From Candidatus Zhuqueibacterota bacterium (GTDB lineage Bacteria > Zhuqueibacterota > Zhuqueibacteria > Residuimicrobiales > Oceaniaggregativiventaceae): 37,914 nt of DNA. The translations under genes were made by a program, and so were the position numbers. Under the pieces are notes generated by a model. It searched no databases and was not told where the DNA came from. It saw only the letters and a program-made list of their open reading frames with translations. Each line of letters opens with the position of its first letter. Position 1 is the first letter of the stretch. Shown here one piece after another: positions 2,354 to 21,803 of this stretch. The stretch is from the NCBI GenBank assembly GCA_016929055.1, contig JAFGJN010000014.1:1-37914 (forward strand), in the 5' to 3' direction.

Positions 2354-3391
2354 ATGATCGTGAAAGCCGATGCTCTGTTCTCTTTTCTCACCCGCTGCGC
2401 CAAAGAGGAACTCTCGCCTTATTCCCAGGTTTTCTTTCCCCTGCGGCCGACGACTCACCCCGATACACTGGTATTAAGCGACAACCCCGATCTCGGAACT
2501 CTGGAAATTGATTCCTATCGCCCGGTCGATCCGGTCAAGCTCTTGCTTTATTCGGTGCGCGAACGGGTTTATCCCGAAATTCGCAATGTTCCTGAACGAT
2601 TGATCGTCGGCGTCAAGGCCTGTGATCTCCGCGCCGTCGAGGTGCTGGATCGTGCCATGATCAATGATGATTTCACTGATCCTTCTTATGCCGCCTGGCG
2701 CAAAGCGACAACGCTCGTTTCCTGCGACTGCACAGCAACCGCCCCGACCTGTCATTGTACCCTGGTCGACGGCAAACCTTACGCCGAGAGCGGATTTGAC
2801 GCCAATCTCTCCCGCCTGGGCGACGAATTTTTGCTGACCGCAACAACAGAGAAAGGCAAAGCGTTCGTTCAGGCGCTTCAGGACTTTACTTCACTTGCCG
2901 CCGCCACCAGGGAATCCAAGATAGAGGTGACGAAAAATCGCGAACAGATGATTCAACAGGTCGATCGACAAAATGCCGATCTGAAGCGTTCGAGGGATTA
3001 TACGGCGATGCGCAAAGTAAAGGAGCAGCCGTGGGAGATCGAATCCAAAGAATGTGTCGGATGCGGCGCCTGCACTCATATTTGCCCAACCTGTTATTGC
3101 CTGATCCTGAACGATGAAAGCCAGGGCAAACGCTTTGTCAAGGTGCGCAGTTACGACTCGTGTCAATGGAATGGCTATGCCCGAGTCGCCGGCGGTGGCA
3201 CACCCCGGCCAAAGATGACCGAGCGATTTCGCAATCGCTATTTGTGCAAGTTCGATTATATGCCGAGCAATTTCGACCGTCTCGGCTGCACTGGCTGTGG
3301 CCGCTGTACCGATGCTTGTCCGGCCAAAATCGATTTCCGCAGTGCGGTGCAAATGATCCTCAAAGCCGGCACGCTTGAACAGACCAGATGA
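2354..3391 (+). CDS. 4Fe-4S protein, sulfhydrogenase beta-subunit/HydB-AsrA-like
   Basis: AGGAGG RBS; two cluster motifs CVGCGACTHICP and CTGCGRCTDACP; family-typical N-terminal region. Confidence 0.85.
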   Translation: MIVKADALFSFLTRCAKEELSPYSQVFFPLRPTTHPDTLVLSDNPDLGTLEIDSYRPVDPVKLLLYSVRERVYPEIRNVPERLIVGVKACDLRAVEVLDRAMINDDFTDPSYAAWRKATTLVSCDCTATAPTCHCTLVDGKPYAESGFDANLSRLGDEFLLTATTEKGKAFVQALQDFTSLAAATRESKIEVTKNREQMIQQVDRQNADLKRSRDYTAMRKVKEQPWEIESKECVGCGACTHICPTCYCLILNDESQGKRFVKVRSYDSCQWNGYARVAGGGTPRPKMTERFRNRYLCKFDYMPSNFDRLGCTGCGRCTDACPAKIDFRSAVQMILKAGTLEQTR

Positions 3392-3420
3392 TCAAAAGCA
3401 AAAGGGAGGAGGGGTCTCTG

Positions 3421-4242
3421 ATGAGCAATCCCTACCGCGTCATTTCGGCGAGTATCACAGAAGTGATACAGGAATCGCCGCTGATCCGGACATTAAAGCT
3501 TTTGCCGGAGGAACCCATAGTTTTTAAAACCGGACAGTTCGTCGAGCTCTCCATTCCCAATATCGGCGAAGGTCCATTTACGCCCTCTTCGTCCCATTAC
3601 ATCTCCGACCGCATGGATATCACCATCATGAAAACCGGTTTTGTCACCGATTATGTCCACCGGGCGCAGGTCGGCGATACGGTCGGGTTGCGGGGCCCTT
3701 ACGGCAGCCACTATCCGCTTGAAAAATTCGATGGTAAGGATGTGCTGATCCTCGGTGGCGGTTGCGGTCTCGCCCCGCTGCGGTCGCTTTTTCTTACCCT
3801 GCTGCACGATGTCGACCGCTACAAAAGCATCACCTTTTTTGCCGGCGCCAAGTCTCCCCAGGATTGCATCTACAAGGATCAGGTGAGCGGTTGGCGCCAG
3901 TTTCCAACCGTTCGTTTTGTCCGATCCGTCGACGCGGTACCGGAAGGCCAGGAATGGAATGAAGATGTCGGGCTGGTCACCAAACTGCTCGCTAACCTCG
4001 ATATCGATCCAAAGACCAATCCCGCCATTGTCTGCGGTCCGCCTCTGATGATGAAATTCGGCACCCTGGAACTGCTGAAAAACGGTTTCAAGGAATCCAA
4101 TATCTATCTCTCCATGGAAAAAAAGATGTACTGCGGTTTTGGCCAATGCCGTCACTGCGTCATGGGCCCCTATTATGCCTGCAAAGACGGCCCGGTATTT
4201 ACCTATGAAAGCATAAAAAACGAGGAGGGCATTTGGGAATGA
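3421..4242 (+). CDS. FAD/NAD(P)-binding 2Fe-2S oxidoreductase, hydrogenase gamma-subunit (HydG-like)
   Basis: Ferredoxin reductase-like fold motifs (GGGCGLAPLRSL, CGPPLMM) and C-terminal CGFGQCRHC...C cluster. Start set at 3421 after AGGGAGGAGG rather than at 3388. Confidence 0.85.
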   Translation: MSNPYRVISASITEVIQESPLIRTLKLLPEEPIVFKTGQFVELSIPNIGEGPFTPSSSHYISDRMDITIMKTGFVTDYVHRAQVGDTVGLRGPYGSHYPLEKFDGKDVLILGGGCGLAPLRSLFLTLLHDVDRYKSITFFAGAKSPQDCIYKDQVSGWRQFPTVRFVRSVDAVPEGQEWNEDVGLVTKLLANLDIDPKTNPAIVCGPPLMMKFGTLELLKNGFKESNIYLSMEKKMYCGFGQCRHCVMGPYYACKDGPVFTYESIKNEEGIWE

Positions 4243-4742
4243 AACGATTGTTTATCGACGTCCCGGAGCTGCTCCGCACCGGCACCTCGCCCGAATCCAT
4301 TCGCTGCGAATATCTTTTTCATCGCAAAAACAACGGTCCTTTTTCCCTGCTCGAAGTGGCCGAGTTTGCGTCGTATTGTCGTCAATGCACCGACGCTTTT
4401 TGCGTCATCGCTTGTCCGACCGAAGCGCTCGAACGTCTCTCTTCAGGAACGATCAAACGCTACAATATGCGCTGTGTCGGTTGCAAAAGCTGCATCCTGG
4501 CCTGTCCCTTTGGCACCATCTTTCCACAAGTGATCAATTATGTCACCGCCCAATGCGATTTTTGCCTCAATCAACTGGAACAGGATGCCGATTACATCCC
4601 CGAATGCGTCAAAACAGCACCGGCCCAGACGTTTCGAATGATTGAAATCGATGAGGACAAACCGGAGGAACAGGTTTTTCTCGTCGGCGAACATTTGGCG
4701 GTCAAAAGCCCGAACTGGCGTAAAAAGGAGGGGCGGATATGA
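4239..4742 (+). CDS. 4Fe-4S electron-transfer subunit, CooF/HycB/HydN-like
   Basis: CRQCTDAFCVIACP, CVGCKSCILACP and CDFC...C motifs; ATGA overlap with the upstream gene. Confidence 0.85.
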   Translation: MKRLFIDVPELLRTGTSPESIRCEYLFHRKNNGPFSLLEVAEFASYCRQCTDAFCVIACPTEALERLSSGTIKRYNMRCVGCKSCILACPFGTIFPQVINYVTAQCDFCLNQLEQDADYIPECVKTAPAQTFRMIEIDEDKPEEQVFLVGEHLAVKSPNWRKKEGRI

Positions 4743-5668
4743 GTCTGCTGACGCTGTTTTATTTGCTCATTTTTCCGGGCCTGTTGTTTACCGCCGTTCT
4801 TGGCCTGTCGGTGGGATGGGTTGACCGCAAACTTTCGGCCCGCTTTCAATTCCGGGTCGGACCACCGTTTTTTCAGAATTTTTATGATTTTATCAAACTT
4901 TTGGGCAAAGAGACCCTGATTGTACGCGATTCGGTCCAATCGCTCTTTATCGCCGCTCCCTTGATCGCTTTTGCCGCGCTGGTGTGCATCTCGGCGTTGA
5001 TCGGCGTCGCGCTCTTTTTCGGTGCCAGCTTTATCGGCGACTTGTATGTGCTTATGTATCTGCTGATGGTCTATTCTGTCATGGTCATCCTCGGCGGTTC
5101 CGCCACCGGCAATGTCTATTCCAGCATCGGTGCCGGACGCGAGATGAAACTCTTGCTTGCCGATGAACTTGCTTTTATCCTGGTCTGCCTGGTTCCGATC
5201 GTCAAGGCCGGGTACGAAATTCGCCTGAGCGAAATTCTCTCTGCCCAACAACTGGGCGGCGCCTTTATCGCTTCACCTTCCGGTATCCTCGCTTTTCTTA
5301 TCGCGCTGATCTGCATTCAGGCAAAAATGGCGCTGCCACCCTTTAATATTCCGGAAGCCGAAACCGAGATTGTCGAAGGCCCCTTTATGGAATACTCGGG
5401 ACCGCCGCTTGCTTTCTGGAAGCTTAACCATTTCATGATGTATGTTTTTTATCCGTTTCTTCTGATCCTGCTTTTTCTCGGTGGTTTTTCTGCCGGAGGA
5501 TGGGGTGTGCTCTGGTTTATCCTCAAATATTTGCTTATCGTCGTGGTCATGATCATTATTAAAAATACCAATCCGCGCGTGCGCATCGATACTGCGCTGC
5601 ATTTTTTCTGGAACATCGCCTTTCCCGTCAGTCTTGTCGCATTGATTCTCGCCGTATTAGGAGTCTAA
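4739..5668 (+). CDS. Membrane anchor subunit, NuoH/MbhM/EchB-like
   Basis: RVGPPFFQNFYDFIKLLGKE and PFNIPEAETEIVEGPFMEYSGPPLA are NuoH-family signatures. Confidence 0.9.
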   Translation: MSLLTLFYLLIFPGLLFTAVLGLSVGWVDRKLSARFQFRVGPPFFQNFYDFIKLLGKETLIVRDSVQSLFIAAPLIAFAALVCISALIGVALFFGASFIGDLYVLMYLLMVYSVMVILGGSATGNVYSSIGAGREMKLLLADELAFILVCLVPIVKAGYEIRLSEILSAQQLGGAFIASPSGILAFLIALICIQAKMALPPFNIPEAETEIVEGPFMEYSGPPLAFWKLNHFMMYVFYPFLLILLFLGGFSAGGWGVLWFILKYLLIVVVMIIIKNTNPRVRIDTALHFFWNIAFPVSLVALILAVLGV

Positions 5669-5670
5669 AT

Positions 5671-6090
5671 ATGGGATGGTACAACAAACGCCTGGCCAAA
5701 TCGATCTGGGTCTTTCATATCAGCGGATCGCCGTGCAACAACTGCGACATTGAAATTCTCGATTTGCTGACGCCCCGATACGACTTGGAACGCATGGGAA
5801 TCAAACTGGTCGGATCGATTCGCCATGCCGATGTTCTCCTGGTCACAGGAATCTTTAATCAAAAAGTCGCCCCCAAAATTGCGCATATCTACAAGCAGGC
5901 ACCCAAGCCGATATTTGTCGTAGCAATCGGGACTTGTCCCACTTCCGGCTGTTGCTTCAAGGATAGCTATAATATAACAGCCAAACGAGAGGATGTGATT
6001 CCCATCGATCTCTATATACCCGGTTGTCCGCCAAAACCCGAGTCGATGATCGAGGGTGTGGCCAAGCTGGTGGAGGTGCTCAATGGATAA
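5671..6090 (+). CDS. Hydrogenase small subunit, NuoB/MbhJ/EchC-like
   Basis: SPCNNCDIEILDLL...GTCPTSGCCF...YIPGCPPKPE, proximal [4Fe-4S] ligands. Confidence 0.9.
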   Translation: MGWYNKRLAKSIWVFHISGSPCNNCDIEILDLLTPRYDLERMGIKLVGSIRHADVLLVTGIFNQKVAPKIAHIYKQAPKPIFVVAIGTCPTSGCCFKDSYNITAKREDVIPIDLYIPGCPPKPESMIEGVAKLVEVLNG

Positions 6091-6514
6091 AATGGATCAA
6101 TTCATCGTCGATATGGGAGACTTGATCGGCAAAACTGTGCGCAAGAAGAAACGGCTCTATTTTCAAGTCAAACAGGAAAATTTGCGCCAAGTCGCCGGTA
6201 TTCTTTTCAATCGTATGAAATGCCGGTTATCGACGGCCACCGCCACGGAAACTTTTCATCACATCGAAGTGCTCTATCATTTTTCGCACGATGCAACAGG
6301 GGATTATTTTTGTCCGCGTATCCTGATTGACGACAAAAAAAATCCCCGGGTTGACTCGATTGCGCCAGTGATCAAAGGAGCGGAGTGGATCGAGCGCGAG
6401 ATGTTTGATTTCTGGGGAATCGATTTTGTTGGTCATCCCCATTTGCAGCGCCTTTTGGCCAAGGATCATCCGCAAGGGCTGGACCAGCCGCTTCGATTCA
6501 GGAGGGATAGATGA
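6083..6514 (+). CDS. NuoC/MbhK-like 30 kDa subunit
   Basis: Position between NuoB- and NuoD-like genes; region IERE(M)FDFWGIDFVGHPHLQRLL is typical. Start moved to 6083. Confidence 0.85.
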   Translation: MDKMDQFIVDMGDLIGKTVRKKKRLYFQVKQENLRQVAGILFNRMKCRLSTATATETFHHIEVLYHFSHDATGDYFCPRILIDDKKNPRVDSIAPVIKGAEWIEREMFDFWGIDFVGHPHLQRLLAKDHPQGLDQPLRFRRDR

Positions 6515-7698
6515 GCACAAACCAAATTCCGGTCGGGCCTTTTCACCCACTCTTGGAAGAGGCCGAATATTTCAACATCAAGGTGGAAGGGGAGACCGTC
6601 GTCGATATCGAAATGGATATCGGGTGGATGCATCGGGGACACGAGTTCATTTCCGAGCAAAAGACCTTTACCCAGTCCATTTTTCTGGTCGAGCGTATTT
6701 GCGGTATTTGTTCAACATCCCACCCGATCGCTTGCGTCCATGCGGTCGAAGACATCGACAACATCGATATTCCTCTGCGGGCGCGCTATATTCGCACGTT
6801 GATCGGTGAACTGGAGCGCATTCACAGCCACCTGCTCTGGCTTGGTTTGGCTGGCCATTTTATCGGCTACGATACCCTGTGGATGTGGGCATGGAAGTAT
6901 CGCGAACCGGTACTGCAGATGTTTGAAATCATCTCCGGCAACCGCAACCATTACGGGATGATGCGCGTCGGCGGCGTGGCGCGCGACGTGGATCCCGATG
7001 CTTTGCCGGCGCTGCTCAAGATCCTCGATGAAATCGACGCCAAGATGGAGATGATCGCCAAAGCGGCCAACGATGATCCGGTACTCAAGAGCCGACTCAA
7101 GGGCGTGGGCGTGCTATCGCATCGGGACGCCATCGACTATTGCGCCGTCGGTCCCACCGCTCGAGCTTCCGGCGTCAAAACCGACGTGCGTAAAGATGAA
7201 CCCACAGACGCCTATGATCTCGTCGACTTTGAGGTCATTGTCACTCAGGCGGGCGATGTCTATGACAAAACTGTTGTGCGTCTGCTTGAAATCATGGAAT
7301 CGAGCAAGATCATACGCCAGTGTCTAGAAAAGTTGCGAAGCGTCTCGGGGCCGATTGTCAATAATGTCAAAGAGATCTCCCCGGGCGAAGGAATCGGACG
7401 ATACGAGGCACCGCGCGGCGAGGTTTTTCATTATATGCGCTCCGATGGCTCCAATCGCCCGATTCGCCACAAAGTCCGTGCGCCCAGCTTTGTGAACATT
7501 CCCACCTTTACCGCTTCCTGCAAAGGAATTCCTTTGGCCGATGCCCTGATCACCTTGGCGTCGGTTGATCCGTGCTATTGTTGTACCGAGCGCGCCATAC
7601 GCGTGGTCGGCCATGCGGAACAGGCTGAATCAATCGATCTGTTGCGTTTATCCCGTGAAAAGACAGAACGAATCAGGAGAACCATTCATGGAGCCTAG
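6511..7698 (+). CDS. Group 4 [NiFe] hydrogenase large subunit, NuoD/MbhL-like
   Basis: N-terminal RICGICSTSH and C-terminal DPCYCCTER retain both Ni-binding CxxC pairs; 34-residue tail after CTER. Confidence 0.92.
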   Translation: MSTNQIPVGPFHPLLEEAEYFNIKVEGETVVDIEMDIGWMHRGHEFISEQKTFTQSIFLVERICGICSTSHPIACVHAVEDIDNIDIPLRARYIRTLIGELERIHSHLLWLGLAGHFIGYDTLWMWAWKYREPVLQMFEIISGNRNHYGMMRVGGVARDVDPDALPALLKILDEIDAKMEMIAKAANDDPVLKSRLKGVGVLSHRDAIDYCAVGPTARASGVKTDVRKDEPTDAYDLVDFEVIVTQAGDVYDKTVVRLLEIMESSKIIRQCLEKLRSVSGPIVNNVKEISPGEGIGRYEAPRGEVFHYMRSDGSNRPIRHKVRAPSFVNIPTFTASCKGIPLADALITLASVDPCYCCTERAIRVVGHAEQAESIDLLRLSREKTERIRRTIHGA

Positions 7699-9508
7699 TG
7701 CGCTGATCTACTTTTTGGTCATTCCGGCCGCGGTTTCATTGATCAATTTGCTCCTGCCGGTTCGGGCTGCAAAAGCGCTGACGGTTATAGCCCTGCTCTA
7801 CCTGTTGGTGCGGTCGATCCACAGCCTGTCCCATCTGCCACTGCTTTCCGAGTGCGGGTTATGGGGAGCCGATCGGTTGGCCGCGTTTGTGTTGCTGTTT
7901 GTGCATATTCTCTCTTTGGTCATCCTCGTTTTTTCACTCAAAGGGGTGCGGAGCGAAATCCAGAGAGCCTTTTTTGTTCTCTATCCTCTGACCGTAGCCT
8001 TTTGCAACGGGGTTTTGCTCAGCCAGCATACCATCGCTTTTATCATTTTTTGGGGATTGTCCGGTCTGAGCCTTTACTTTTTTGCCCTGATGGGTCAAGG
8101 CGACTCTTATTCTCAGACCGCGAAAAAAACCTTTATCATCATCGGCGGCAGCGATGTTTTCCTGATCTTCGGTTTCATTCTCCTGGCTGCCAGGTTGCCG
8201 GTCAAGGAATGGAACCTGTCGGCCTTGCAGATGCAGAGCGGTGATCCACTTTACTATCTCGCGTTCTTTTCTTTGCTGATCGCCGTCCTGGCCAAGGCCG
8301 GAGGATTTCCGTTGCACAGTTGGGTGCCGGATTTTAGCAAAACATCGCCGATCGAATCCACTGCGTTTTTACCTTCATCGCTCGACAAATTGCTCGGCAT
8401 CTTTTTACTCGCCCGTATGATGACTGCATTTTTCGCGGTTGAATTGATCGTCAAAATGATTATTATCAGTATAGGCGCCATAACGGTGGTTGGCGCGGTT
8501 ATGATGGCCATTATGCAACCCAATGCTCGACGACTGCTCGGTTACAGTACCGTCAGTCAGGTAGGGTATATGCTCATGGGTGTCGGTAGCGGCAATCCAA
8601 TCGCTTTTGCCGGCGGTCTGTTCCATATGGTCAACCATACCCTGTACAAGTCCAATCTCTTTCTCTCGCTCGGTTCGGTAGAGAAACAGACAGGAAGCAG
8701 CGAGTTCCGAGATCTTGGCGGAATAGCCAAAGGTATGCCTCTGACCTTTCTTATGGCATTGATCGGCTCACTGGCCATATCCGGTATTCCTCCGTTCAGT
8801 GGATTCTATTCCAAGTGGATGATCTACCAGGGTTTGCTCGAACAAACAAAAACCCTGCCGGCAGGATATCAGATCTGGATGTTGATTTGTCTTTTGCTGG
8901 CCATCTTTGGCAGCGCTCTGACGCTGGCCTGTTTTGTCAAATTTTTGCACGCAGTCTTTCTCGGCCGCAACCCGGGTCGGGAAAAGATCCACGAAGCCCC
9001 TGCTAATCAATGGTTGGCGACCGGCATTTTTGCTCTTTTCTGTATCGTTTTCGGCCTTTTTGCCGCTGCTCTGCCGCTCAAACGGTTGATCATTCCGGTT
9101 CTCGCCGAGCTGGGTATCGCCGCCGATCTCTCCCTGATCGGGTATTACGATCCCTTGCTATTAACAGGATTGTTTGCGATCGTCTTTTTGATCGGATGGG
9201 TCGTCTACCGCGCCACACGCGTGGTTCGCTATGATGAAATCTATCTGGGGGGCATGGCGGCAGAAACGCGTTTTCGCGTCAGCGGCGTTGATTTTTATCG
9301 CGAAATTAGACAAATGCCCCTGTTGCAGACCATTTATACGGCAGCCGAAAAAAAATACTGCGATATCTATGAGCTGGGGAGTAAGGGCACCTTTTTCTTT
9401 TCCGGGATACTGCAAAAATTGCATCCCGGGCTTTTACAGTGGTATCTGTTCTATATACTCCTCGGTCTATTGCTTCTCTTACTGATCACGATCAATATCG
9501 GAGGATGA
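7688..9508 (+). CDS. NuoL/MrpA-N-like antiporter-type membrane subunit
   Basis: AKAGGFPLHSWVPDF, VGYMLMGVG and AGGLFHMVNHTLYKS motifs. Start ATG 7688 overlaps the end of the large-subunit gene. Confidence 0.85.
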   Translation: MEPSALIYFLVIPAAVSLINLLLPVRAAKALTVIALLYLLVRSIHSLSHLPLLSECGLWGADRLAAFVLLFVHILSLVILVFSLKGVRSEIQRAFFVLYPLTVAFCNGVLLSQHTIAFIIFWGLSGLSLYFFALMGQGDSYSQTAKKTFIIIGGSDVFLIFGFILLAARLPVKEWNLSALQMQSGDPLYYLAFFSLLIAVLAKAGGFPLHSWVPDFSKTSPIESTAFLPSSLDKLLGIFLLARMMTAFFAVELIVKMIIISIGAITVVGAVMMAIMQPNARRLLGYSTVSQVGYMLMGVGSGNPIAFAGGLFHMVNHTLYKSNLFLSLGSVEKQTGSSEFRDLGGIAKGMPLTFLMALIGSLAISGIPPFSGFYSKWMIYQGLLEQTKTLPAGYQIWMLICLLLAIFGSALTLACFVKFLHAVFLGRNPGREKIHEAPANQWLATGIFALFCIVFGLFAAALPLKRLIIPVLAELGIAADLSLIGYYDPLLLTGLFAIVFLIGWVVYRATRVVRYDEIYLGGMAAETRFRVSGVDFYREIRQMPLLQTIYTAAEKKYCDIYELGSKGTFFFSGILQKLHPGLLQWYLFYILLGLLLLLLITINIGG

Positions 9509-9509
9509 C

Positions 9510-10055
9510 ATGCCGATAGAAACCTGGTTGATCTTTACGATGGGAATCATGTTGGTCGGATCGATCGTCGCTCTGGAGATTCGGGATGTCCTCTCGGCGA
9601 TTATCGCCATCGGCATTGTCGGGTTGGCCGTCTCGATCGCTTTTCTGTTTCTGCAGGCGCCGGACCTGGCGATCGTTCAATTCTTGTTCGAAATTTTCGC
9701 CTTGATCATTCTGGTGCGTGCCTTTATTGGAAAAAAAGCGCACGAGGATTCCCTGGCGAGCAACAAAACGGCCGCGGTGGTCGTCGGCGTCGTTCTTTTG
9801 GCCATTCTTTTCCTTTGCCTGCCGATTTTTCGCGCGCTGCCGCCCTTTGGTGAACCGCTTTTCATCACCAGCGCTCACTATACCAAAATGGCGACACAGG
9901 AGACCGGAGCGGCCAACCTTGTTGCTTCCATCATCCTCGATTATCGCGCCTATGATACCCTGGGCGAAGTAACCGTTCTCTTTGCCGCGATTCTGGGGGC
10001 CCTCACCGTCCTCAGAACCTCTCGCCGGACCCAGAAAGGGAAGGAGTCGAAATGA
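9510..10055 (+). CDS. MbhD/MbhE-like fusion (DUF4040 plus MrpA C-terminal/MnhB-N-like region)
   Basis: APDLAIVQFLFEIFALIILVRAF (DUF4040-like) followed by ANLVASIILDYRAYDTLGEVTVLFAAILGALTVLR. Confidence 0.8.
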   Translation: MPIETWLIFTMGIMLVGSIVALEIRDVLSAIIAIGIVGLAVSIAFLFLQAPDLAIVQFLFEIFALIILVRAFIGKKAHEDSLASNKTAAVVVGVVLLAILFLCLPIFRALPPFGEPLFITSAHYTKMATQETGAANLVASIILDYRAYDTLGEVTVLFAAILGALTVLRTSRRTQKGKESK

Positions 10056-10501
10056 AAGATCAGCAAGGCATGTCGATCATCGTCAAGACCGTGACACGGG
10101 TGAGCGTCTGGCTGATCCTCCTCTACGGCTGGTACATCATCCTTCACGGCCACCTCACTCCTGGCGGCGGATTTGCCGGCGGGGTGATTATCGCATTGGC
10201 TTTTTTAAACGTCATGCTCGCCTATGGCAAGGATTTTACTGTCAAGTGGCTCAACATCCAATTCCTCAAGGATATGGAAGCCGCCAGCATCACCCTTTTC
10301 CTGGTCATGGGATTGCTGGGCATCTCTTTTGGCGGCGCTTTTCTGGCCAATTTTCTCGGTAAAGGCAAGCTGTTCCATCTCTTCAGCGCAGGCACGATCC
10401 CTCTCTTTAATGTCATCATCGGAATCAAGGTGGCAATGTCGCTCTTTCTCGTCGTCTGGGTATTGGCCGACATCGATAGCACGAAAGGAGGGGAGCTGTG
10501 A
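10052..10501 (+). CDS. mrpB: MrpB/MnhB-like antiporter subunit
   Basis: GHLTPGGGFAGGVIIALAF signature. Confidence 0.85.
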   Translation: MKDQQGMSIIVKTVTRVSVWLILLYGWYIILHGHLTPGGGFAGGVIIALAFLNVMLAYGKDFTVKWLNIQFLKDMEAASITLFLVMGLLGISFGGAFLANFLGKGKLFHLFSAGTIPLFNVIIGIKVAMSLFLVVWVLADIDSTKGGEL

Positions 10502-10836
10502 TTCTCTATGTCCTGTGTTTTGCGCTCTTTTTGGTCGGTGTCTATGGACTGCTGACCAAACGCGACCTCATCAAGATCATTCTCTCCACGGCTATCATGG
10601 GTTATGCCGCCAATTTGTTTCTGGTCCTCTTTGGCTACCGGCACGACGCCACTTTTCCCATCCTCACAGAGGCAAATGCCGGTCAACCCATGGTCGACCC
10701 TCTGCCGCAGGCATTGGTCCTGACCTCGATCGTGATCGAATTGGGCATAACAGCGCTCTTGGTCGCTCTGGCCATCCGTCTGTATCAAAAGTATGCGACT
10801 TTTGATATCACAAAAATGAGGAGCCTGAAAGGATGA
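10498..10836 (+). CDS. mrpC: MrpC/MnhC/NuoK-like subunit
   Basis: DPLPQALVLTSIVIELGITALLVALAIRLY signature. Confidence 0.88.
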   Translation: MILYVLCFALFLVGVYGLLTKRDLIKIILSTAIMGYAANLFLVLFGYRHDATFPILTEANAGQPMVDPLPQALVLTSIVIELGITALLVALAIRLYQKYATFDITKMRSLKG

Positions 10837-12314
10837 TTCTTCCCTATTTTGTTATTTTACCGCTGCTGGCGGCATTCCTGATCACTTTGCTGGCGGGGAA
10901 AAAAGATGATTGGGCCATTACGCTGGCTTTCATGGCTCTCATCTCCCTTTTGGTTCTCTCGATATTCGGTTTCGTCACCATGCACGAGGAGACCGTCGTC
11001 TATTCCATGAGCGGGTGGGATGCCCCGATCGGCATTTGTCTGGTTCAGGATGCACTCAGCCTCTTTATGCTGGTCATGATCAATTTGATCGCACTGACAT
11101 CGCTCTGTTTTTCAATCCAGTATATCCGCCATCTATCCCAGGACTGGAAGTATTACGCTCTGTTCATGCTCCTTATAGCCGGTATGAACGGAGTCGTTGT
11201 AACCGGAGATCTGTTCAATCTCTATGTCTTTATGGAAATCGCTCTGATTTCGGCCTTTGCTCTCGTGGCTTACGGATGTCGCGCCGAGGAATACGAGGCT
11301 TCTTTCAAGTATGCCGTGATGGGGGGGCTTTCATCCTCGATCATCCTCATCGGCATTGCCTTTACCTACAGCGCCACTTCAAGCCTGACTCTGGCTCGCA
11401 TTGCAGAGGTTTTGCCGACTGTGGATCCACGGTTGGTCCTGTGGATCGGCGCGCTTTTTCTCGCTGGATTTGGCCTCAAGGCGGCTTCGATGCCCTTTCA
11501 CGCCTGGCTGCCGGATGCTCACTCGTCCGCACCGGCCCCCATTTCGTCTATGCTTTCAGGGGTTCTGATCAAGGCGCTGGGTGTTTATGTACTCTTTCGC
11601 CTCTTCTTTAACGTTTTTGGGGCACCGGCGATTTTCATGCAGCTTTTGCTCGTTCTCGGTGCTCTGTCGATTGTGCTTGGCGTCTTTTTGGCGATCGGTC
11701 AATGGGATCTCAAACGCCTGCTGGCCTATCACAGCATCAGCCAAATCGGCTATATCCTGCTGGGTATGGGCCTTGCTACACCGCTCGGTATCCTCGGTGC
11801 GGTTTTTCACCTCTTAAACCATGCGCTGTTTAAATCGCTGCTGTTTTACAATGCCGGCGCAGTCGAGATGGTGCTGGGGACAAGAAATTTGCGAAAAATG
11901 GGGAAATTGGCCAAGCTGCTGCCTGTCACTTCCGGCACCAGCATGGTCGCTTCGCTCTCCATTTCCGGAATCCCGCCCTTTAACGGGTTCTTTAGTAAAT
12001 TGATCATCATTATCGCTGCGATTCAAGCCGGACACCCGATATTTGCTTTTTGGGCCGTTTTGGGCAGTTTGTTGACCCTGGCCTCATTCATGAAAGTCCA
12101 GCGCTATGGTTTTTACGGCGAAATTGAACACAAAACCCCGATTATGATGCCCGGCAATCTTGTGCGCTTCGCGATGCTGACTCTGGCCGTGCTCTGTGTG
12201 CTCTCCAGCCTGATGGTGTTGCCGGGAATCCGGGAGCTGACGCTTGATCCTGTGGTCGATGTAATTCTGAACAAAACCGGATATATTCGAATGGTCTGCG
12301 GGAGGGCCCTATGA
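10833..12314 (+). CDS. mrpD: MrpD/MnhD-like antiporter subunit
   Basis: FNLYVFMEIALISAFALVAYG, GLKAASMPFHAWLPDAHSSAPAPISSMLSG, VFHLLNHALFKSLLF. Confidence 0.9.
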   Translation: MILPYFVILPLLAAFLITLLAGKKDDWAITLAFMALISLLVLSIFGFVTMHEETVVYSMSGWDAPIGICLVQDALSLFMLVMINLIALTSLCFSIQYIRHLSQDWKYYALFMLLIAGMNGVVVTGDLFNLYVFMEIALISAFALVAYGCRAEEYEASFKYAVMGGLSSSIILIGIAFTYSATSSLTLARIAEVLPTVDPRLVLWIGALFLAGFGLKAASMPFHAWLPDAHSSAPAPISSMLSGVLIKALGVYVLFRLFFNVFGAPAIFMQLLLVLGALSIVLGVFLAIGQWDLKRLLAYHSISQIGYILLGMGLATPLGILGAVFHLLNHALFKSLLFYNAGAVEMVLGTRNLRKMGKLAKLLPVTSGTSMVASLSISGIPPFNGFFSKLIIIIAAIQAGHPIFAFWAVLGSLLTLASFMKVQRYGFYGEIEHKTPIMMPGNLVRFAMLTLAVLCVLSSLMVLPGIRELTLDPVVDVILNKTGYIRMVCGRAL

Positions 12315-12817
12315 CCGTGCAAAATAAAAGTCGTTTGACCGTTTTTGTGCTCGCCGTCCTGGTCTGGGCGGCGCTGACCGATATTCGAAAAATTGAAGAG
12401 CTCATCATTGGGTTGGTGGTGGCAGCGATCGTCAGCCTTTTGGCCGGTAAATTTTTCCTTACGGGTGAGCGCCGGCAGAGATTGTGGCGTCGAGTGGGCT
12501 ATGGTGTCTATTATTTGATCCATTTCATCTGGGAAATGATCAAAGCCAACGTGCATGTCGCCTATCTTGTCATCCATCCCCGCGTGCCGATCAAGCCCGG
12601 CATTATCAAAATCAAGACCAATTTGTCCCGTGAAACCGCGCTTACAGTTCTGGCCAATTCCATTACTCTGACCCCGGGAACCCTGACAATCGATATCGAT
12701 CCCGCAAAAAAAATACTCTATATCCACTGGATCGATGTTCAGTCAACAACGGTTGAAGAATCGACTCGACAAATCGGCGGCCGATTCGAAGCCATTCTGA
12801 TGGAGGTGTTTGAATGA
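12311..12817 (+). CDS. mrpE: MrpE/MnhE-like subunit
   Basis: ETALTVLANSITLTPGTLTIDID signature. Confidence 0.9.
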   Translation: MTVQNKSRLTVFVLAVLVWAALTDIRKIEELIIGLVVAAIVSLLAGKFFLTGERRQRLWRRVGYGVYYLIHFIWEMIKANVHVAYLVIHPRVPIKPGIIKIKTNLSRETALTVLANSITLTPGTLTIDIDPAKKILYIHWIDVQSTTVEESTRQIGGRFEAILMEVFE

Positions 12818-13152
12818 AAAGCGTGCGCTGGTTTTTGGGCCTCATAATTTTGGCGGCGCTCTTTTATGCCAACTTTGTTGTTTTTCAGGGCGATATTTTG
12901 GCCAAACTCATCAACGTCTATTTATTCAGCGCGCTCTTTGTACTCTATCGCGTTTTGATTGGGCCCTCAGCAGCCGATCGCCTGGTCGCCGTCGATATTT
13001 TTGGAATTCTCATCGTCGGTTTGCTTGCCATTATCGGTCTGGCCAACGAAAATGACTTTTTTATGGATATCGGTCTGATTTGGGCGCTGTTGAGTTTTAT
13101 CGCTTCGCTGGCCTTTGCGAAAATATTGGAAGGGAGATCCCTCGATGATTAG
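12814..13152 (+). CDS. mrpF: MrpF/MnhF-like subunit
   Basis: LYRVLIGPSAADRLVAVDIFG signature. Confidence 0.88.
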   Translation: MKSVRWFLGLIILAALFYANFVVFQGDILAKLINVYLFSALFVLYRVLIGPSAADRLVAVDIFGILIVGLLAIIGLANENDFFMDIGLIWALLSFIASLAFAKILEGRSLDD

Positions 13153-13486
13153 AGAAACTCTGGGCATGAGCCTGATTTTTTTGGGTATCGCCTTTGATTT
13201 TTTCGGTGTGCTGGGATTGGTTCGATTGCCCGATGTCTATAACCGATTGCAGGCGGCAACAAAGTGCGTGACATTCGGATCCGCCGGGGTTCTTTTGGGT
13301 GTTTTTATCCTAAAGGGATTCACACCCTTTGGATTTAAGGCTTTGCTCGGTATTGTTTTCATTTTTCTTGCTTCTCCGGTTGCGGCACATGTCATCGCGC
13401 GCGCCGCTCATCGCACCAATATTCCGCTCACGCCGAGCACGGTCACCGACCAATACGCCGATGATCAGAAAACGCAAAAAAAGTGA
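13145..13486 (+). CDS. mrpG: MrpG/MnhG-like subunit
   Basis: GVLGLVRLPDVYNRLQAATKCVTFGSAGVLLG signature; start set at 13145, overlapping the mrpF end. Confidence 0.88.
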   Translation: MIRETLGMSLIFLGIAFDFFGVLGLVRLPDVYNRLQAATKCVTFGSAGVLLGVFILKGFTPFGFKALLGIVFIFLASPVAAHVIARAAHRTNIPLTPSTVTDQYADDQKTQKK

Positions 13487-13534
13487 ATGCAAAACAGTGC
13501 TCCCGGCGGTTCGGACATTTCTTCGGAGGTTGTT

Positions 13535-14137
13535 ATGATTCTTCCCAAAATTCGGGAAATAAAAGAAGCCCTTGGCTCGCTCTTTTCAGCACCGATAACG
13601 ACACCCTTTCCGGCCGTTCCATTTGAGGCGGAGAAAAACTATCGCGGTATTCCCCGCTATAACGCCGAACATTGCATCGGCTGCGGAACCTGTGCCCAGG
13701 TTTGTCCCTCTACGGCAATAACGATAACCGATGACCTGAAAAAAAAGATCCGTACATTGACCGTCGATCTGACTTCTTGCATGAACTGCGGACAGTGCGA
13801 AGAGAAATGTATTACCGAAAAAGGCATTCAACTATCCAACGAACACTCGCTTTTCTATGCCGATCGCAAGGAACCGCAGCTTTATGAGCGGCTGGAAAGG
13901 GAACTGATTCTTTGCGAAATCTGCAACAAGCCGATCGCCTGCCTCGATCATCTCCAGTGGGTTAAAAACCGTTTGGGCGCCAAAGCCTATGCGCACCCCA
14001 ATTTTCTGCTCCTCGTGCAGGCTAAGAGCAGCACGATCGAACCCTCCTCACCCAAGGAGCGGCTGCGCCGGGAAGATCAGATCAAATGGGTCTGTGCCAG
14101 TTGTCGTCAACAGATCGTCACGATCGATGAATTTTAA
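13535..14137 (+). CDS. NuoI/HycF-like 2x[4Fe-4S] subunit with extra C-terminal cysteine pairs
   Basis: CIGCGTCAQVCPSTAI, CMNCGQCEEKC, then CEIC...CASC; GGAGG RBS before ATG 13535. Confidence 0.85.
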   Translation: MILPKIREIKEALGSLFSAPITTPFPAVPFEAEKNYRGIPRYNAEHCIGCGTCAQVCPSTAITITDDLKKKIRTLTVDLTSCMNCGQCEEKCITEKGIQLSNEHSLFYADRKEPQLYERLERELILCEICNKPIACLDHLQWVKNRLGAKAYAHPNFLLLVQAKSSTIEPSSPKERLRREDQIKWVCASCRQQIVTIDEF

Positions 14138-14597
14138 TGACCTCTATAAACAGCTTTCCGGCTGTGCTTCCGAGCGGATCGTTTTCGTGGCCCTCGGCAA
14201 TGACTTGCGCGGGGACGATGGCGCAGCCTATCGTTTTGTCGATAAACTGAAAAGCCGTTCAAAATTTGCCTCCATACAGGTCATTCGCGCCGGTACAACA
14301 CCGGAAAATCATCTGCATCAAATTTGCCGCGATTCTCCTCAGGCGGTTGTTTTTATCGATGCGGCGGATTTTGGCCAAAAACCGGGGACGATCGAGATGT
14401 TGCCGGATGACCGGTTGAAAACCAGCGCCAGCACACATACCTATTCTCTGGCAATGATCGCACAATATCTGCAGTTCGAATGCCCCGCCGCCGCTGTTTA
14501 TTACCTCGGGATTCAGCCGCATTCACTGGCCTGCGGCACTCTTATTTCTGCCGAGGTGAATGCGGGTCTGGATCGATTTTTTGCCGGTTCCATCTAG
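14127..14597 (+). CDS. Hydrogenase maturation endopeptidase (HycI/HyaD family)
   Basis: FVALGNDLRGDDGAAYRFVDKL and VVFIDAADFG motifs; start ATG 14127 overlaps the preceding stop. Confidence 0.85.
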   Translation: MNFNDLYKQLSGCASERIVFVALGNDLRGDDGAAYRFVDKLKSRSKFASIQVIRAGTTPENHLHQICRDSPQAVVFIDAADFGQKPGTIEMLPDDRLKTSASTHTYSLAMIAQYLQFECPAAAVYYLGIQPHSLACGTLISAEVNAGLDRFFAGSI

Positions 14598-14643
14598 CTG
14601 TCTTGTCCTTCGCAACCAAGTCATCCGGACTAAGTGGACCTTT

Positions 14644-16023
14644 ATGTTTTCGCAATTCAAAATCATTACGCCCTTTCATACGATCGAAGCGATGAGAACC
14701 CGCCTGGCCTGGTATGTCAATCTGCGCTGGTTGACCATCTTTGCCATTCTTGCTGTTGTCCCGCTGGGGCAACGATTGCTCAATTTTGACCTCCCTTATC
14801 ATATGATCATTCTAATCGCTTCGGTCTTGCTCTGGCTTAATGTCAGTTATTTCATGCTTTGCCGCTATATGCCGCGGAAAAATATGGTGCAGGAATTGAT
14901 CTTTGCCCAGGTGCAGATTGTCGGCGACCTGCTGATTGTCTCCTTGTTGATTCATTTTTCCGGAGGTATCGAAAATCCTTTCTTTTTTCTCTATATCGTT
15001 CAAGTGATTCTTTCAGCAATCATGCTGCCCGGTCACCGACTGCCCGTCATCAATGCGGTGCTGGCTGCCGTGCTGATCACAGTTTGGACTTTGCTCGAAT
15101 ACATGCAATGGGTGCCGGCGTATACTCTGGGTGAGGCTCGAATGAGCAAACCCTATATCGTTACCGCTCTCGCTGCTTTTTATATCACCAACTTCGCCGG
15201 TCTTTACATCATTCAGACCTTTATGATACGCTATCGCCATCTCAAAGAACTCATCGACAAAAAAAATCGCCTGCTGGAAAAGTCGATTCGCGAACGAAAA
15301 ACCATATTTCGTTACGCTGCACATGAACTGAAATCGCCTCTGGGTGTGATTAAAAGCACCCTGCAGGCCGTACGGGTTTTGAGCGGCGATATACTGCCGC
15401 CCGAAGTGGCCGATATGGTGCTGCGGGGGGAAAATCGGTCGGCTCAGGTCATGGAAATGGTCAACGAAATGATCGCTATAACCCGATACAACCAGGGCGT
15501 GGAAAAACATGTGCCGGAATGGATTGACTTTCAGGATTGGCTGAATCAAGTGGTGGAATTACAGCGGGATTTCGCTCTAACCAAACGTATTCACTTGCAA
15601 ATGTGTCGAATTCCCGAACCGATTCGTGTGCGTATCGATAAAATAGATATGGAACGTGTGGCGCGAAATCTTGTCAACAATGCGCTTCGCTACACACCGG
15701 AAGGAGGGGAGGTTGTGGTCAAGCCGTTTCTATCCCCCCTTTCCTTTGGATTTTCGGTTCGCGATTCAGGTATCGGAATTGCTCGAAAAGACCTGAAGAA
15801 AATTTTTAACGAATTCTATCGCGCTGCCAATGCAAAGGAAATGGAGCGAGTGGGAACCGGTTTGGGATTGATTCTGGTCAAGGAGATCATGCGCCGCAAC
15901 GGCGGTACGATTCGAGTGAAAAGCACCCTGGGCAAGGGATCGGTTTTTACAATCGAGTTTCCGCTGACACCCGCAGCACACTTGACCTCGAACACTGAAA
16001 TCGTGAAAATCGGATCCGGCTGA
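14644..16023 (+). CDS. Membrane sensor histidine kinase with RegB-like GGxxNPF motif
   Basis: Several N-terminal hydrophobic segments; HFSGGIENPF; H-box RYAAHELKSPLG; N-box NLVNNALRYTPEGG; G-boxes DSGIGI and GTGLGL. Confidence 0.88.
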   Translation: MFSQFKIITPFHTIEAMRTRLAWYVNLRWLTIFAILAVVPLGQRLLNFDLPYHMIILIASVLLWLNVSYFMLCRYMPRKNMVQELIFAQVQIVGDLLIVSLLIHFSGGIENPFFFLYIVQVILSAIMLPGHRLPVINAVLAAVLITVWTLLEYMQWVPAYTLGEARMSKPYIVTALAAFYITNFAGLYIIQTFMIRYRHLKELIDKKNRLLEKSIRERKTIFRYAAHELKSPLGVIKSTLQAVRVLSGDILPPEVADMVLRGENRSAQVMEMVNEMIAITRYNQGVEKHVPEWIDFQDWLNQVVELQRDFALTKRIHLQMCRIPEPIRVRIDKIDMERVARNLVNNALRYTPEGGEVVVKPFLSPLSFGFSVRDSGIGIARKDLKKIFNEFYRAANAKEMERVGTGLGLILVKEIMRRNGGTIRVKSTLGKGSVFTIEFPLTPAAHLTSNTEIVKIGSG

Positions 16024-16060: not shown

Positions 16061-17122
16061 TCAGCAAATTCGCGGAAGCTGTTCACCGCTATATAAATCG
16101 AGTATTCTTTCCCCTCCATAGGCATTGCGCAAACGCACCTGCCCCCCCTTGTCCGGACCAATGACCCGTCCAATTGTCCGCACCGCTCCCGGCGCCTGTT
16201 CCGCCAGCACTTGAGAAACGCGTTCACCATCGCGAGCATCGACAAAGGCTATAAATCTTCCTTCATTGGCAACCGCCAACGGATCGAGTCCGAAAAGATC
16301 GCAGGCGCTTTGAACGGCAGCAAGGACGGGTATTTCCGGTTCATAGAGCTCGATATCCCAGCCGCCACTCCGGGCTAGCTCTACCACCGCAGCACTCAAA
16401 CCGCCCCGGGTCAGATCACGCATGCAGTTTATCCGGTATTTCGACTGATACAGAGCTTGAACCTGATCGGTCAGCGGTGCACAGTCGCTTCGAATCTCGG
16501 TTTCGAATTCCATGCCATCCCGCAGAGCGAGAATACAGGTGCCGTGTCGCCCAATATCTCCATTGAGCACCAAGAGATCTCCTTCAGCGATTCGAAAAGG
16601 AGAGGGTGGCGGATCGAAAACAGTGATCCCGATGCCGCTGGTGGTAATAAACATACCGGCTTCGTCTCCCTGCCCTTCGATCACTTTGGTATCTCCCGTA
16701 ACGATCTGTACATTAGCTAGTTTCGCTGATAACTTTATGCTTTGCATGATAGATTCAAAGGTGGAAATTTCCAGTCCTTCCTGTAAAATCAAAGAAAGGC
16801 TCAGGAATTTGGGTATTGCCCCGCTCATGCACAGATCGTTGACGGTTCCGTAAACGGCCAGTGTGCCAATATCGCCGCCCGGGAAAAAAAGGGGCGTGAC
16901 AACGTAGGAATCGGTGGTGAAAGCAATGGGAGCGCCAGGGTTTGGCAAAACGGCACCATCGTGTTCCTGGTTTAAAAAGGGATTGCCGAGAAGAGGCCGT
17001 ATTCGTGTTTCGATGAGGTCGCGCGTCAATCGTCCTCCGCCCCCATGCCCCAGAGTTATGCGGGACTGGGGATCGTTTTCGACAGGACAAACCGCTCCGG
17101 TGTAAGGTTCCTTTGAGGTCAT
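16061..17122 (-). CDS. hypE: Hydrogenase maturation protein HypE
   Basis: GHGGGGRLTRDLI...TRGGLSAAVVELA...; ends in PRIC, the HypE C-terminal signature. Confidence 0.95.
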   Translation of the reverse strand: MTSKEPYTGAVCPVENDPQSRITLGHGGGGRLTRDLIETRIRPLLGNPFLNQEHDGAVLPNPGAPIAFTTDSYVVTPLFFPGGDIGTLAVYGTVNDLCMSGAIPKFLSLSLILQEGLEISTFESIMQSIKLSAKLANVQIVTGDTKVIEGQGDEAGMFITTSGIGITVFDPPPSPFRIAEGDLLVLNGDIGRHGTCILALRDGMEFETEIRSDCAPLTDQVQALYQSKYRINCMRDLTRGGLSAAVVELARSGGWDIELYEPEIPVLAAVQSACDLFGLDPLAVANEGRFIAFVDARDGERVSQVLAEQAPGAVRTIGRVIGPDKGGQVRLRNAYGGERILDLYSGEQLPRIC

Positions 17123-18210
17123 TTTTTTCTCCGATAGCGAAAGTAAGCAGCGCATGCACCTTCGGAAGAGACCATCGGTGCCCCTAAAGGATTTTCCGGT
17201 GTACAGGAAACGCCAAAGTAGGGGCATTGATCCGGTCGTAGCAAACCTTGAAGAATCCGTCCACTGGGACAAATTTCCGATTGCTCAGGTCTTGGGCTGA
17301 GGCTGTCGGCAAAACGCCATTTGGCATCGAAGTGACGGTAACGCTCGCGAATTGCCAGGCCGCTCTGGGGTATGGTTCCGAGGCCGCGCCAATTCCGATT
17401 GACGATTTCAAAGATTTGTGTCAATTTCTGTTGGGCATGACTGTTTCCTGGATCTCGTGCCACTCGAGAATAGGCATTTTCGACGCCAAAATTTTTTTCT
17501 TCCAATCTGACAACACAGCGATAAAGTCCATAGAGAAGATCCAGCGGTTCAAAGCCGGTCACAACGATGGGGAGTTGAAAGCGGGAGGCGATTATCTCAT
17601 ATTCCTTGCAGCCCATGATGGTGCAGACATGTCCGGCGGCAAGAAATCCGTCGATTCGGTGATCGGGATGGCTCAAGAGGAGCTGAATCGCCGGTGGAAC
17701 GCGGACATGGGCGCAAAGAACAGAGAAATTTTGCGCGTTGCGTTTTTCAGCTTGTTCGATGGTCCAGGCCACTGCCGGGGCGGTGGTTTCAAATCCGACA
17801 GCAAAAAAAACCGCCTGTTTAGCCGGGTGCGCTTCGGCCCAGGTCAAAGCATCCATTGGCGAATAGACCATGTTCACCGAGGCGCCGGCCGATTTGGCAG
17901 ACAAGAGATCGGTTTCACTGCCGGGCACGCGCAGCATATCACCAAAGCTCAAGAGGGTGATGTCGGAGCGATTGGCCAGAGCGACGGCTGCATCGATCCA
18001 CTCAACACCAGTCACACATACCGGACATCCGGGTCCGTGTAACAACGATATTGACTTCGGCAGCAGACGATCAAGTCCGTATTTAAGAAACACATGCGTC
18101 TGGCCACCGCAAATTTCCATCACGCTCCACTTGCGAGTCGTGACGTCGTCGAGGCTTTGGAGCAAGCGCTGGACGGTTTCAGGATCGCGAAACGCGTTTT
18201 GATATGTCAT
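17119..18210 (-). CDS. hypD: Hydrogenase maturation protein HypD
   Basis: MEICGGQTHVFLKYGLDRLLP...HGPGCPVCVTG...AVGFETTAPA; start MTYQNAFRD. Confidence 0.95.
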   Translation of the reverse strand: MTYQNAFRDPETVQRLLQSLDDVTTRKWSVMEICGGQTHVFLKYGLDRLLPKSISLLHGPGCPVCVTGVEWIDAAVALANRSDITLLSFGDMLRVPGSETDLLSAKSAGASVNMVYSPMDALTWAEAHPAKQAVFFAVGFETTAPAVAWTIEQAEKRNAQNFSVLCAHVRVPPAIQLLLSHPDHRIDGFLAAGHVCTIMGCKEYEIIASRFQLPIVVTGFEPLDLLYGLYRCVVRLEEKNFGVENAYSRVARDPGNSHAQQKLTQIFEIVNRNWRGLGTIPQSGLAIRERYRHFDAKWRFADSLSPRPEQSEICPSGRILQGLLRPDQCPYFGVSCTPENPLGAPMVSSEGACAAYFRYRRKK

Positions 18211-18454
18211 GCAATCGCTGCTGATTTTTCTGCTCCACTTGTTTGAGATGATCGAGAACTTGTTGCGCTTCATGAGAGTCCATAAGCGATAAGGCAAATC
18301 CCACATGAACAGTCACATAGTCTCCGACACCGGCTTCAGGGACATAACTCAAATTGACCGTCTTAATAATTCCCCCGAAATCCACCCGTCCCAAACGATT
18401 TTCCAGGTTGTTTTGGCTGATTTCAACGATTTTACCGGGTATGGCCAAACACAT
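18179..18454 (-). CDS. hypC: Hydrogenase maturation chaperone HypC
   Basis: MCLAIPGKIVEI...GDYVTVHVGFAL. Confidence 0.95.
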   Translation of the reverse strand: MCLAIPGKIVEISQNNLENRLGRVDFGGIIKTVNLSYVPEAGVGDYVTVHVGFALSLMDSHEAQQVLDHLKQVEQKNQQRLHDISKRVSRS

Positions 18455-20801: not shown

Positions 20802-21463
20802 CGGCTTGCTCTGAGTTTATCCTGCTGCGCGTGGGACAGCCAATCCACCCAGGCGGGTAACCCCTGACCGGTTTTTGCCGAAACGTTGATGATTTCGAGT
20901 CCGGGATGTACAGCATGAACATGTTTGCCATAGGCTTCCTGGTCAAACTCGACGACCGGTGCCAGATCCATCTTGTTGAGGAGGCAGAGAGACGCTTCCC
21001 GAAAAACGCGGGGATATTTGATCGGCTTGTCTTCACCTTCGGTGGTGCTGGAAATGACGACTTTATGATCCTCACCTAGATCAAAACAAGCCGGACAGAC
21101 CAGATTTCCTACATTTTCAATAAAAAGCAAAGAGACACCGGATAAATCCGCTGAATTCATGGCATCGCGAATGAGGCCGGCGTCGAGGTGGCATCCACCA
21201 TGAGTGACGATTTGGACTGCGCGAAATCCAAGCGCTGCGATGCGTTGTGCATCGCGATCCGTCTGTACATCGCCTTCGATGACCATAACCGTTGGGGGAT
21301 CGAGGTGCTGCAACGTCCGTTCGAGCAAGGTGGTTTTGCCCGCCCCCGGAGAACTGAGCAAATTGATGACCGCAATCCCGTTGCGTAAAAAATAGTGCCG
21401 ATTGGCGACGGCTATTTCATCGTTTTTTTGCAAAATGCGTCGTTCGACCGTAATCACCGACAT
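20798..21463 (-). CDS. hypB: Hydrogenase nickel incorporation GTPase HypB
   Basis: SSPGAGKTTLLERTL, EGDVQTDRDA, GGCHLDAGLI, LLNKMDL. Confidence 0.95.
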   Translation of the reverse strand: MSVITVERRILQKNDEIAVANRHYFLRNGIAVINLLSSPGAGKTTLLERTLQHLDPPTVMVIEGDVQTDRDAQRIAALGFRAVQIVTHGGCHLDAGLIRDAMNSADLSGVSLLFIENVGNLVCPACFDLGEDHKVVISSTTEGEDKPIKYPRVFREASLCLLNKMDLAPVVEFDQEAYGKHVHAVHPGLEIINVSAKTGQGLPAWVDWLSHAQQDKLRASR

Positions 21464-21464
21464 T

Positions 21465-21803
21465 TCAGAACTCCACTTCAGAGACCATCAATTCATCGCC
21501 GCTGTTGATATCGAGCCCGGTCGATTCACAGTGCGGGCAGCAAAAACTAAACTGCTCGAGTCTAAAGTCGCGTGCGCATTTCCGGCATTGCGCACGAACC
21601 GGGATACGGATGATTTCCAGCCGCGAACCGACCAATTTGCTGTCTGCGATCAATGCCTCATAGCAGGACTGTAACTGGTCAGGAATAAGCGGATTGAGCT
21701 CGCCGACTTTGACCCGGACGCATTTAAGCGATTTTTCCGGGTGTTGAAGCATAATCTCGTCGACGATGGCGACAATCTCGCGAGCCAATGACAATTCGTG
21801 CAA
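21465..21803 (-). CDS. hypA: Hydrogenase nickel metallochaperone HypA, TTG start
   Basis: Start (TTG)HELSLAREIV places the required MHE N-terminus; zinc site CRKC...CPHC. Confidence 0.9.
   Translation of the reverse strand: MHELSLAREIVAIVDEIMLQHPEKSLKCVRVKVGELNPLIPDQLQSCYEALIADSKLVGSRLEIIRIPVRAQCRKCARDFRLEQFSFCCPHCESTGLDINSGDELMVSEVEF

Follow-up and report, generated by a model that had tools for sequence, protein, structure and literature searches.

We analyzed a 37,914-nucleotide stretch of DNA (the window) from Candidatus Zhuqueibacterota bacterium (assembly GCA_016929055.1, contig JAFGJN010000014.1, positions 1 to 37,914), which carries on its plus strand one tight, co-directional operon joining HydB- and HydG-like electron-input genes to a group 4 [NiFe] hydrogenase and an Mrp-type antiporter. 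Sixteen genes lie between positions 2354 and 14137, and a 17th, encoding a HycI-type protease, takes the operon to 14597. Judged from the coordinates, the junctions between successive genes range from an 11-nucleotide overlap to a 29-nucleotide gap, and many of them are 4-nucleotide stop/start overlaps. All the genes named between 2354 and 14137 by an earlier prediction made from the sequence (the original prediction) are present, co-directional, and have matching coordinates. Its gene content stands, but its operon end at 14137 does not, because the protease gene, which it did not list, extends the operon.

The first two genes encode a putative electron-input module, HydB and HydG (together, HydBG). 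The HydB/AsrA-like Fe-S subunit (2354 to 3391; Pfam Fer4_22) has the beta subunit of sulfhydrogenase I as its best PDB relative (9nez_B, E = 2.6e-37). Two classical 4Fe-4S motifs are found in 67/67 homologues, and an extra set of cysteines (C90, C126, C133, and C135) is found in nearly all of them. The HydG/AsrB-like subunit (3421 to 4242) has flavin adenine dinucleotide (FAD), NAD(P), and 2Fe-2S domains (Pfam FAD_binding_6, NAD_binding_1, and DHODB_Fe-S_bind). Its best PDB relative is the sulfhydrogenase I gamma subunit (9nez_C, E = 7.5e-51), and its four 2Fe-2S cysteines are kept in all 72 homologues. The HydG reading frame is open from an ATG at 3388, but the likely start is the ATG at 3421, because a purine-rich, Shine-Dalgarno-like stretch precedes it and many homologues begin there. 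The third gene encodes a CooF/HycB-type polyferredoxin (4239 to 4742; Pfam Fer4_11; PDB matches to NrfC- and HycB-type proteins) with two complete 4Fe-4S motifs and a third whose last cysteine is absent from this protein and from nearly half of its homologues. The CooF/HycB-like ferredoxin of the original prediction is thus borne out, and so, at the family level, are its HydB- and HydG-like subunits, which are supported by Pfam, NCBIfam, and the sulfhydrogenase I structures.

How closely HydB and HydG can be named is set by the NCBIfam scores. HydB reaches 141 bits with the HydB model, 135 with ShyB, and 112 with AsrA. Both proteins stay below the sulfhydrogenase equivalog cutoffs (141 versus 750 bits for HydB and 178 versus 650 bits for HydG) and also below those of AsrA (112 versus 323 bits) and AsrB (206 versus 289 bits). 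We therefore place them, by sequence, only in the wider HydB/AsrA and HydG/AsrB families. With AsrB as the best NCBIfam model for HydG and HydB matching AsrA too, the module might be a sulfur/polysulfide or sulfite reductase outlet, in which H2 oxidation would be coupled to sulfur reduction and ion export; sulfhydrogenase was itself named for its sulfur-reducing activity. We consider this improbable, as HydG retains its NAD(P)- and FAD-binding domains, HydB is nearer to HydB than to AsrA, and domain searches of the operon proteins found no AsrC-like gene product. With AsrA and AsrB under their cutoffs and no AsrC-like gene in the operon, membership in the AsrABC sulfite reductases was rejected.

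Next come the genes of the hydrogenase core, which encode a NuoH/MbhM-type membrane anchor (4739 to 5668; Pfam NADHdh, 2.2e-64), a NuoB/MbhJ-type small subunit for the proximal 4Fe-4S cluster (5671 to 6090; Pfam Oxidored_q6, 1e-27), a NuoC/MbhK-type subunit (6083 to 6514; Pfam Complex1_30kDa, 2.4e-21), and a NuoD-type group 4 [NiFe] large subunit (6511 to 7698; Pfam NiFeSe_Hases plus Complex1_49kDa). A NuoI/HycF-type subunit with two 4Fe-4S sites and a C-terminal four-cysteine motif is encoded further downstream (13487 to 14137; NCBIfam formate hydrogenlyase iron-sulfur subunit, 1.9e-28), completing the NuoB-, NuoC-, NuoH-, and NuoI-type partner set of group 4 [NiFe] enzymes. The large subunit has the alpha subunit of the Pyrococcus furiosus membrane-bound hydrogenase (MBH) as its best PDB relative (E = 9.3e-85), in agreement with the Mbh/Ech-like module originally predicted. 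In the large-subunit tree, MBH and HycE sit on long branches, and the deep branching order was not used.

Both CxxC motifs are intact in the large subunit, and the four Ni-ligand cysteines are kept in every homologue covered (92 to 93 of 93 large subunits). The last operon gene (14127 to 14597), which overlaps the NuoI/HycF-type gene, encodes a HycI-type hydrogenase maturation protease (Pfam HycI; TIGR00072 above cutoff). Adjoining the operon and convergent with it are the [NiFe] cofactor maturation genes hypE, hypD, hypC, hypF, hypB, and hypA on the minus strand (16061 to 21917; Pfam HypD, HupF_HypC, HypF domains, cobW/HypB, HypA, and AIRS). Homology to Mbx and Nuo subunits would also fit a core that does not make H2 and is instead a relative of Mbx or complex I; with the Ni-ligand motifs conserved, the protease in the operon, and the hyp genes beside it, we regard such a core as highly improbable.

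Between the large subunit and the NuoI/HycF-type subunit lies the antiporter arm. It begins with a NuoL/MrpA-N/MbxH'-like antiporter subunit (7688 to 9508), whose best PDB match is MbxH' (6u8y_X), followed by MrpA, and an MbhD-MbhE fusion (MbhDE, 9510 to 10055; Pfam MbhD and MbhE), which aligns with the MrpA C terminus (roughly positions 602 to 768 of NCBIfam NF009287). The remaining genes encode MrpB (10052 to 10501; NCBIfam antiporter subunit B, above cutoff), MrpC (10498 to 10836; NCBIfam antiporter subunit C, E = 5.5e-25), an MrpD/MbhH-like antiporter subunit (10833 to 12314; PDB matches to Mrp D, 7.4e-77, and MbhH, 2.2e-76), MrpE (12311 to 12817; Pfam MNHE, 1.1e-44), MrpF (12814 to 13152; Pfam MrpF_PhaF, 1.9e-15), and MrpG (13145 to 13486; Pfam PhaG_MnhG_YufB, 3.4e-25). 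The full Mrp set of the original prediction holds for MrpB to MrpG; MrpA is whole only as a split gene, and the MrpA-to-MrpG module is complete if the NuoL-like subunit and MbhDE are taken as its two parts.

The two large antiporter subunits differ in their charged residues. The NuoL-like subunit is without the transmembrane glutamate, having FWGL instead of FWEL; glycine replaces the glutamate in 69/73 homologues, while three lysines are invariant and the MBX and MrpA chains aligned to it have the glutamate. In MrpD, the glutamate and two lysines are present in 60/60 homologues and the third lysine is present in 59/60. Because MrpD keeps the full set, whereas the NuoL-like subunit is without its glutamate, MrpD is, from these residues, the likelier ion channel of the two. 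The NuoL-like subunit thereby offers a natural test of the number of ion channels that such complexes need.

A gene-neighborhood comparison, proposed along with the original prediction, showed that the layout recurs. The sample of the 80 best named loci consists of the closest relatives and so is not neutral; 55 of these are covered for at least 4.2 kb upstream. HydB and HydG are both present in 53 of the 55, that is, 52 by scripted count plus L118 by inspection, where HydB-HydG is followed by three inserted genes. At L114, HydG is present and the contig starts inside or just before it. L073, from Celaenobacter (Cloacimonadota), has the same core including CooF without HydB and HydG. Of the 9 antiporter/NuoI genes, at least 8 are present at 38 of the 40 loci that are fully covered downstream. 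The order HydB-HydG-CooF-NuoHBCDL-MbhDE-MrpB to MrpG-NuoI is kept in genomes of the same phylum at 78 to 87% and 55 to 57% large-subunit identity, and its persistence down to about 55% rules out a chance arrangement. Phyla in the record titles, which can be wrong for metagenome-assembled genomes, include Neomarinimicrobiota, Ignavibacteriota, Cloacimonadota, Thermotogota, Omnitrophota, Fibrobacterota, Bacillota, Zixibacteria, Elusimicrobiota, Hydrogenedentota, Planctomycetota, Spirochaetota, and Nitrospirota, among others. At four loci (L092, L099, L111, and L114), a molybdopterin-family gene lies between HydG and CooF, giving the gene set of a Saganbacteria region described in PMC6349859.

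HydBG also appears to be inherited together with the core. Pairwise distances correlate with those of the large subunit at 0.88 for HydG (71 loci) and 0.77 for HydB (67 loci), compared with 0.66 to 0.86 among pairs of core subunits, although shared organism phylogeny inflates all such values; the values for HydG and HydB were not reached in any of 500 permutations. A tree of 81 HydG sequences places the 74 linked to group 4 in one clade (support 100/97), apart from three sequences of the selenoprotein clade described below and from four group 3b sequences, which are a small sample of that group. In the genome to which the window belongs (completeness 90.5%), a single [NiFe] large subunit and a single HydB were detected; neither a second [NiFe] large subunit nor a 3b hydrogenase was detectable in it. 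The notion that HydBG is a separate soluble enzyme merely sharing a transcript, which the original prediction had named as the finding that would undo it, draws on HydBG homologues that work in soluble group 3b enzymes and on three related genomes (L043, L044, and L045) in which the group 4 operon comes directly after a 3b-like hydrogenase operon of the order HydB-HydG-small-large. The near-universal linkage, the co-inheritance, the separate HydG clade, and the genome without a detectable 3b enzyme all argue against it and leave it quite improbable. By its sequence relationships, HydBG is part of the group 4 hydrogenase unit. An assignment to the group 3b sulfhydrogenases was rejected on the cutoffs given above, the separate HydG clade, and the absence of HydA and HydD from the operon.

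From the observed gene content, gene order, cofactor ligands, conservation, and co-inheritance, we propose that the operon encodes a reversible NAD(P)H:H+ oxidoreductase that works as one membrane complex coupled to Mrp-type ion transport, with a probability of about 0.6. We infer the formation of the complex, its NAD(P)H partner, its direction, and its ion, and we draw the electron path from homology. The FAD of HydG would oxidize NAD(P)H or reduce NAD(P)+, and electrons would pass between the 2Fe-2S cluster of HydG, the 4Fe-4S clusters of HydB, the CooF/HycF-type ferredoxins, the NuoB cluster, and the large subunit, whose [NiFe] site would interconvert H+ and H2. NuoH would link the redox reaction to ion movement in the Mrp-like arm, made up of the split MrpA and MrpB to MrpG. 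A reversible enzyme is expected because the potentials of the two couples are similar: by textbook values, NAD(P)H is at about -320 mV, and H2 is at -414 mV at 1 bar and about -300 mV at 10 Pa. When H2 is low, the reaction would thus run close to equilibrium, and the ion gradient would supply the balancing force. At low H2 pressure the complex would make H2, driven by the gradient if needed, and at high H2 it would reduce NAD(P)+ with H2 and export ions. The near-universal presence of HydBG in the clade points to NAD(P)H, and not to ferredoxin alone, as the partner, and such a partner would predict the way in which many uncultured fermenters use H2 to shed reducing power or to regain it.

Several points weigh against this proposal. 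H2 formation from NAD(P)H is endergonic under standard conditions, so that unaided ion export would be impossible except at low H2. The model closest to HydG is that of a sulfite reductase subunit and not of sulfhydrogenase HydG, so the electron partner could differ, and the molybdopterin-family protein between HydG and CooF in some relatives means that the module there may serve another substrate. The core at L073 shows that it can work without HydBG, and the distance correlations carry the phylogenetic inflation mentioned above. A Rex-type protein (Put_DNA-bind_N plus CoA_binding), of a family that senses NADH/NAD+, is encoded just upstream of HydB at L036 and L046 and speaks for the proposal; against it, a search for a Rex operator upstream of the window operon gave no site above chance.

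The same core without HydBG at L073, which includes CooF, also suits an Mbh that is driven by ferredoxin and has a side branch to NAD(P)H. Reduced ferredoxin would feed the CooF/HycF-type proteins directly, HydBG would exchange part of the electrons with NAD(P)H, and the complex would act as an enzyme that pumps ions with both Fd:H+ and Fd:NAD(P)+ activity (Fd, ferredoxin), which would be confurcation in the widest sense. MBH, to which the core is closest, is ferredoxin-linked, and several POR-family genes together with Rnf/Nqr-family genes in the genome make it probable that reduced ferredoxin is available. We hold this arrangement to be unlikely: the group 4 core of the clade is almost never without HydBG, and the operon does not encode a second flavin protein for flavin-based bifurcation. 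Flavin-based confurcation requires a second flavin site. Pfam and NCBIfam found no NfnB, EtfAB, or NuoF-type flavin subunit among the operon products, of which HydG is the only one with a flavin domain, and confurcation through flavins was therefore rejected. Of the mechanism originally suggested, the NAD(P)H-linked, ion-coupled hydrogenase remains our best reading of the genes and the confurcation falls away. NuoF-like genes are found on other contigs of the genome, with [FeFe]-hydrogenase-type genes near them on C180 and C234, and the gene set is consistent with a fermenter having other H2 routes. A bolder and rather doubtful extension of the NAD(P)H:H+ proposal is that the complex stands for a third class of electron input to Mrp-linked respiratory hydrogenases, the first two being ferredoxin and formate/CO. 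In it, NAD(P)H would be interconverted with H2 and reduced ferredoxin would enter via CooF/HycF, both pools being coupled to an ion gradient that would take the place of flavin bifurcation in balancing NAD(P)H against H2.

Outside the window, relatives of the same class include a separate clade of group 4 large subunits at 42 to 48% identity with one in-frame TGA. At twelve loci (L019 and L021 to L031, from genomes of the same class and order), it replaces the second cysteine of motif L1 (RICGIUG). It is followed by a hairpin, ACAGTAC-GGN-GTACTGT, that is almost invariant through synonymous positions and, by its sequence, is as expected for a bacterial selenocysteine insertion sequence; in the genus of L019, L021, and L022, the pair adjoining the loop is lost. 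A strong tRNA for selenocysteine (68 bits or more) was found in 9/14 genomes and SelB above cutoff in 10/14, with one or both in 12/14 and neither in G032 and G050. HydB and HydG are encoded in the operons of L050 to L052, two of which were confirmed to include a molybdopterin oxidoreductase. We take this as a lead and predict selenocysteine at the second, bridging cysteine of L1 in a HydBG-linked group 4 hydrogenase. In known [NiFeSe] enzymes selenocysteine takes the place of the first cysteine in the C-terminal motif, which is a terminal ligand of Ni; the second cysteine of L1, by contrast, bridges Ni and Fe. The rows consulted in Table 1 of a 2026 selenoproteome review give UxxC for hydrogenase alpha subunits, and no report of the L1 form was found in the open-licence literature searched.

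The window has other features around the operon. After it, at 14560 to 16023, is a gene for a sensor histidine kinase with a PilS-like membrane domain. Several close relatives have a similar-sized gene after the protease, and in L034 it was confirmed to encode a kinase. At 490 to 1552 lie remnants of a TonB-dependent receptor, an N-terminal regulatory-like domain and a barrel end in two frames, and an HTH_3 plus IrrE/M78-type protein is encoded on the minus strand at 36395 to 37489.

The doubt about novelty voiced with the original prediction was justified: the layout is not wholly new, since it has a published precedent and recurs in many uncultured bacterial phyla. The one report found, PMC6349859 (Matheus Carnevali et al. 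2019), describes a Saganbacteria RX5A region in which a group 4 hydrogenase and Mrp subunits occur with cooF, asrA, asrB, and a molybdopterin oxidoreductase; the window has no molybdopterin oxidoreductase. That hydrogenase, nearest to those of Zixibacteria and Omnitrophica, was called enigmatic; an "oxidoreductase module" and an Mbh-like function were proposed, and the parts consulted state no NAD(P)H-linked mechanism. Neither a purified example nor an NAD(P)H-linked interpretation of the layout was found in the open-licence literature searched, nor was a HydBG-group 4 complex found in the available parts of the Thermotogae, Moorella, and Armatimonadota literature. Caldithrix abyssi was rejected as a known example, no group 4 hydrogenase being reported for it.

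Among characterized enzymes, the P. furiosus MBH (group 4d) shares the core subunits, MbhD/E, MrpB-G-type subunits, and the MrpD-like MbhH, but it is ferredoxin-linked and without a flavin module; its subunit set, MbhA to MbhN with the single antiporter-like MbhH, does not cover the window operon, which adds HydB, HydG, CooF, and the second, NuoL-like antiporter subunit. Sulfhydrogenase I (group 3b, HydBGDA) has homologous HydB and HydG but is soluble, with other catalytic and small subunits and without a membrane arm. The Fdh2-Mfh2-Mnh2 formate hydrogenlyase of Thermococcus onnurineus (group 4b type; PMC8965080) likewise combines a modular input enzyme, a membrane hydrogenase, and a Na+/H+ antiporter in one cluster; its input is formate dehydrogenase, whereas that of the window operon is HydBG. 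For Cloacimonadota and Omnitrophota, 4g enzymes linked to Mrp have been described without mention of NADPH, flavin, sulfite reductase, or HydG (PMC8542988). Candidatus Celaenobacter is among the organisms assigned such an enzyme there, and at L073 its large subunit is 71% identical and it has the same core and Mrp arm, but without the HydBG of the window operon. HydDB lists group 4g as putatively ferredoxin-coupled with an "undetermined role" (PMC5037454), a role that the HydBG layout makes testable.

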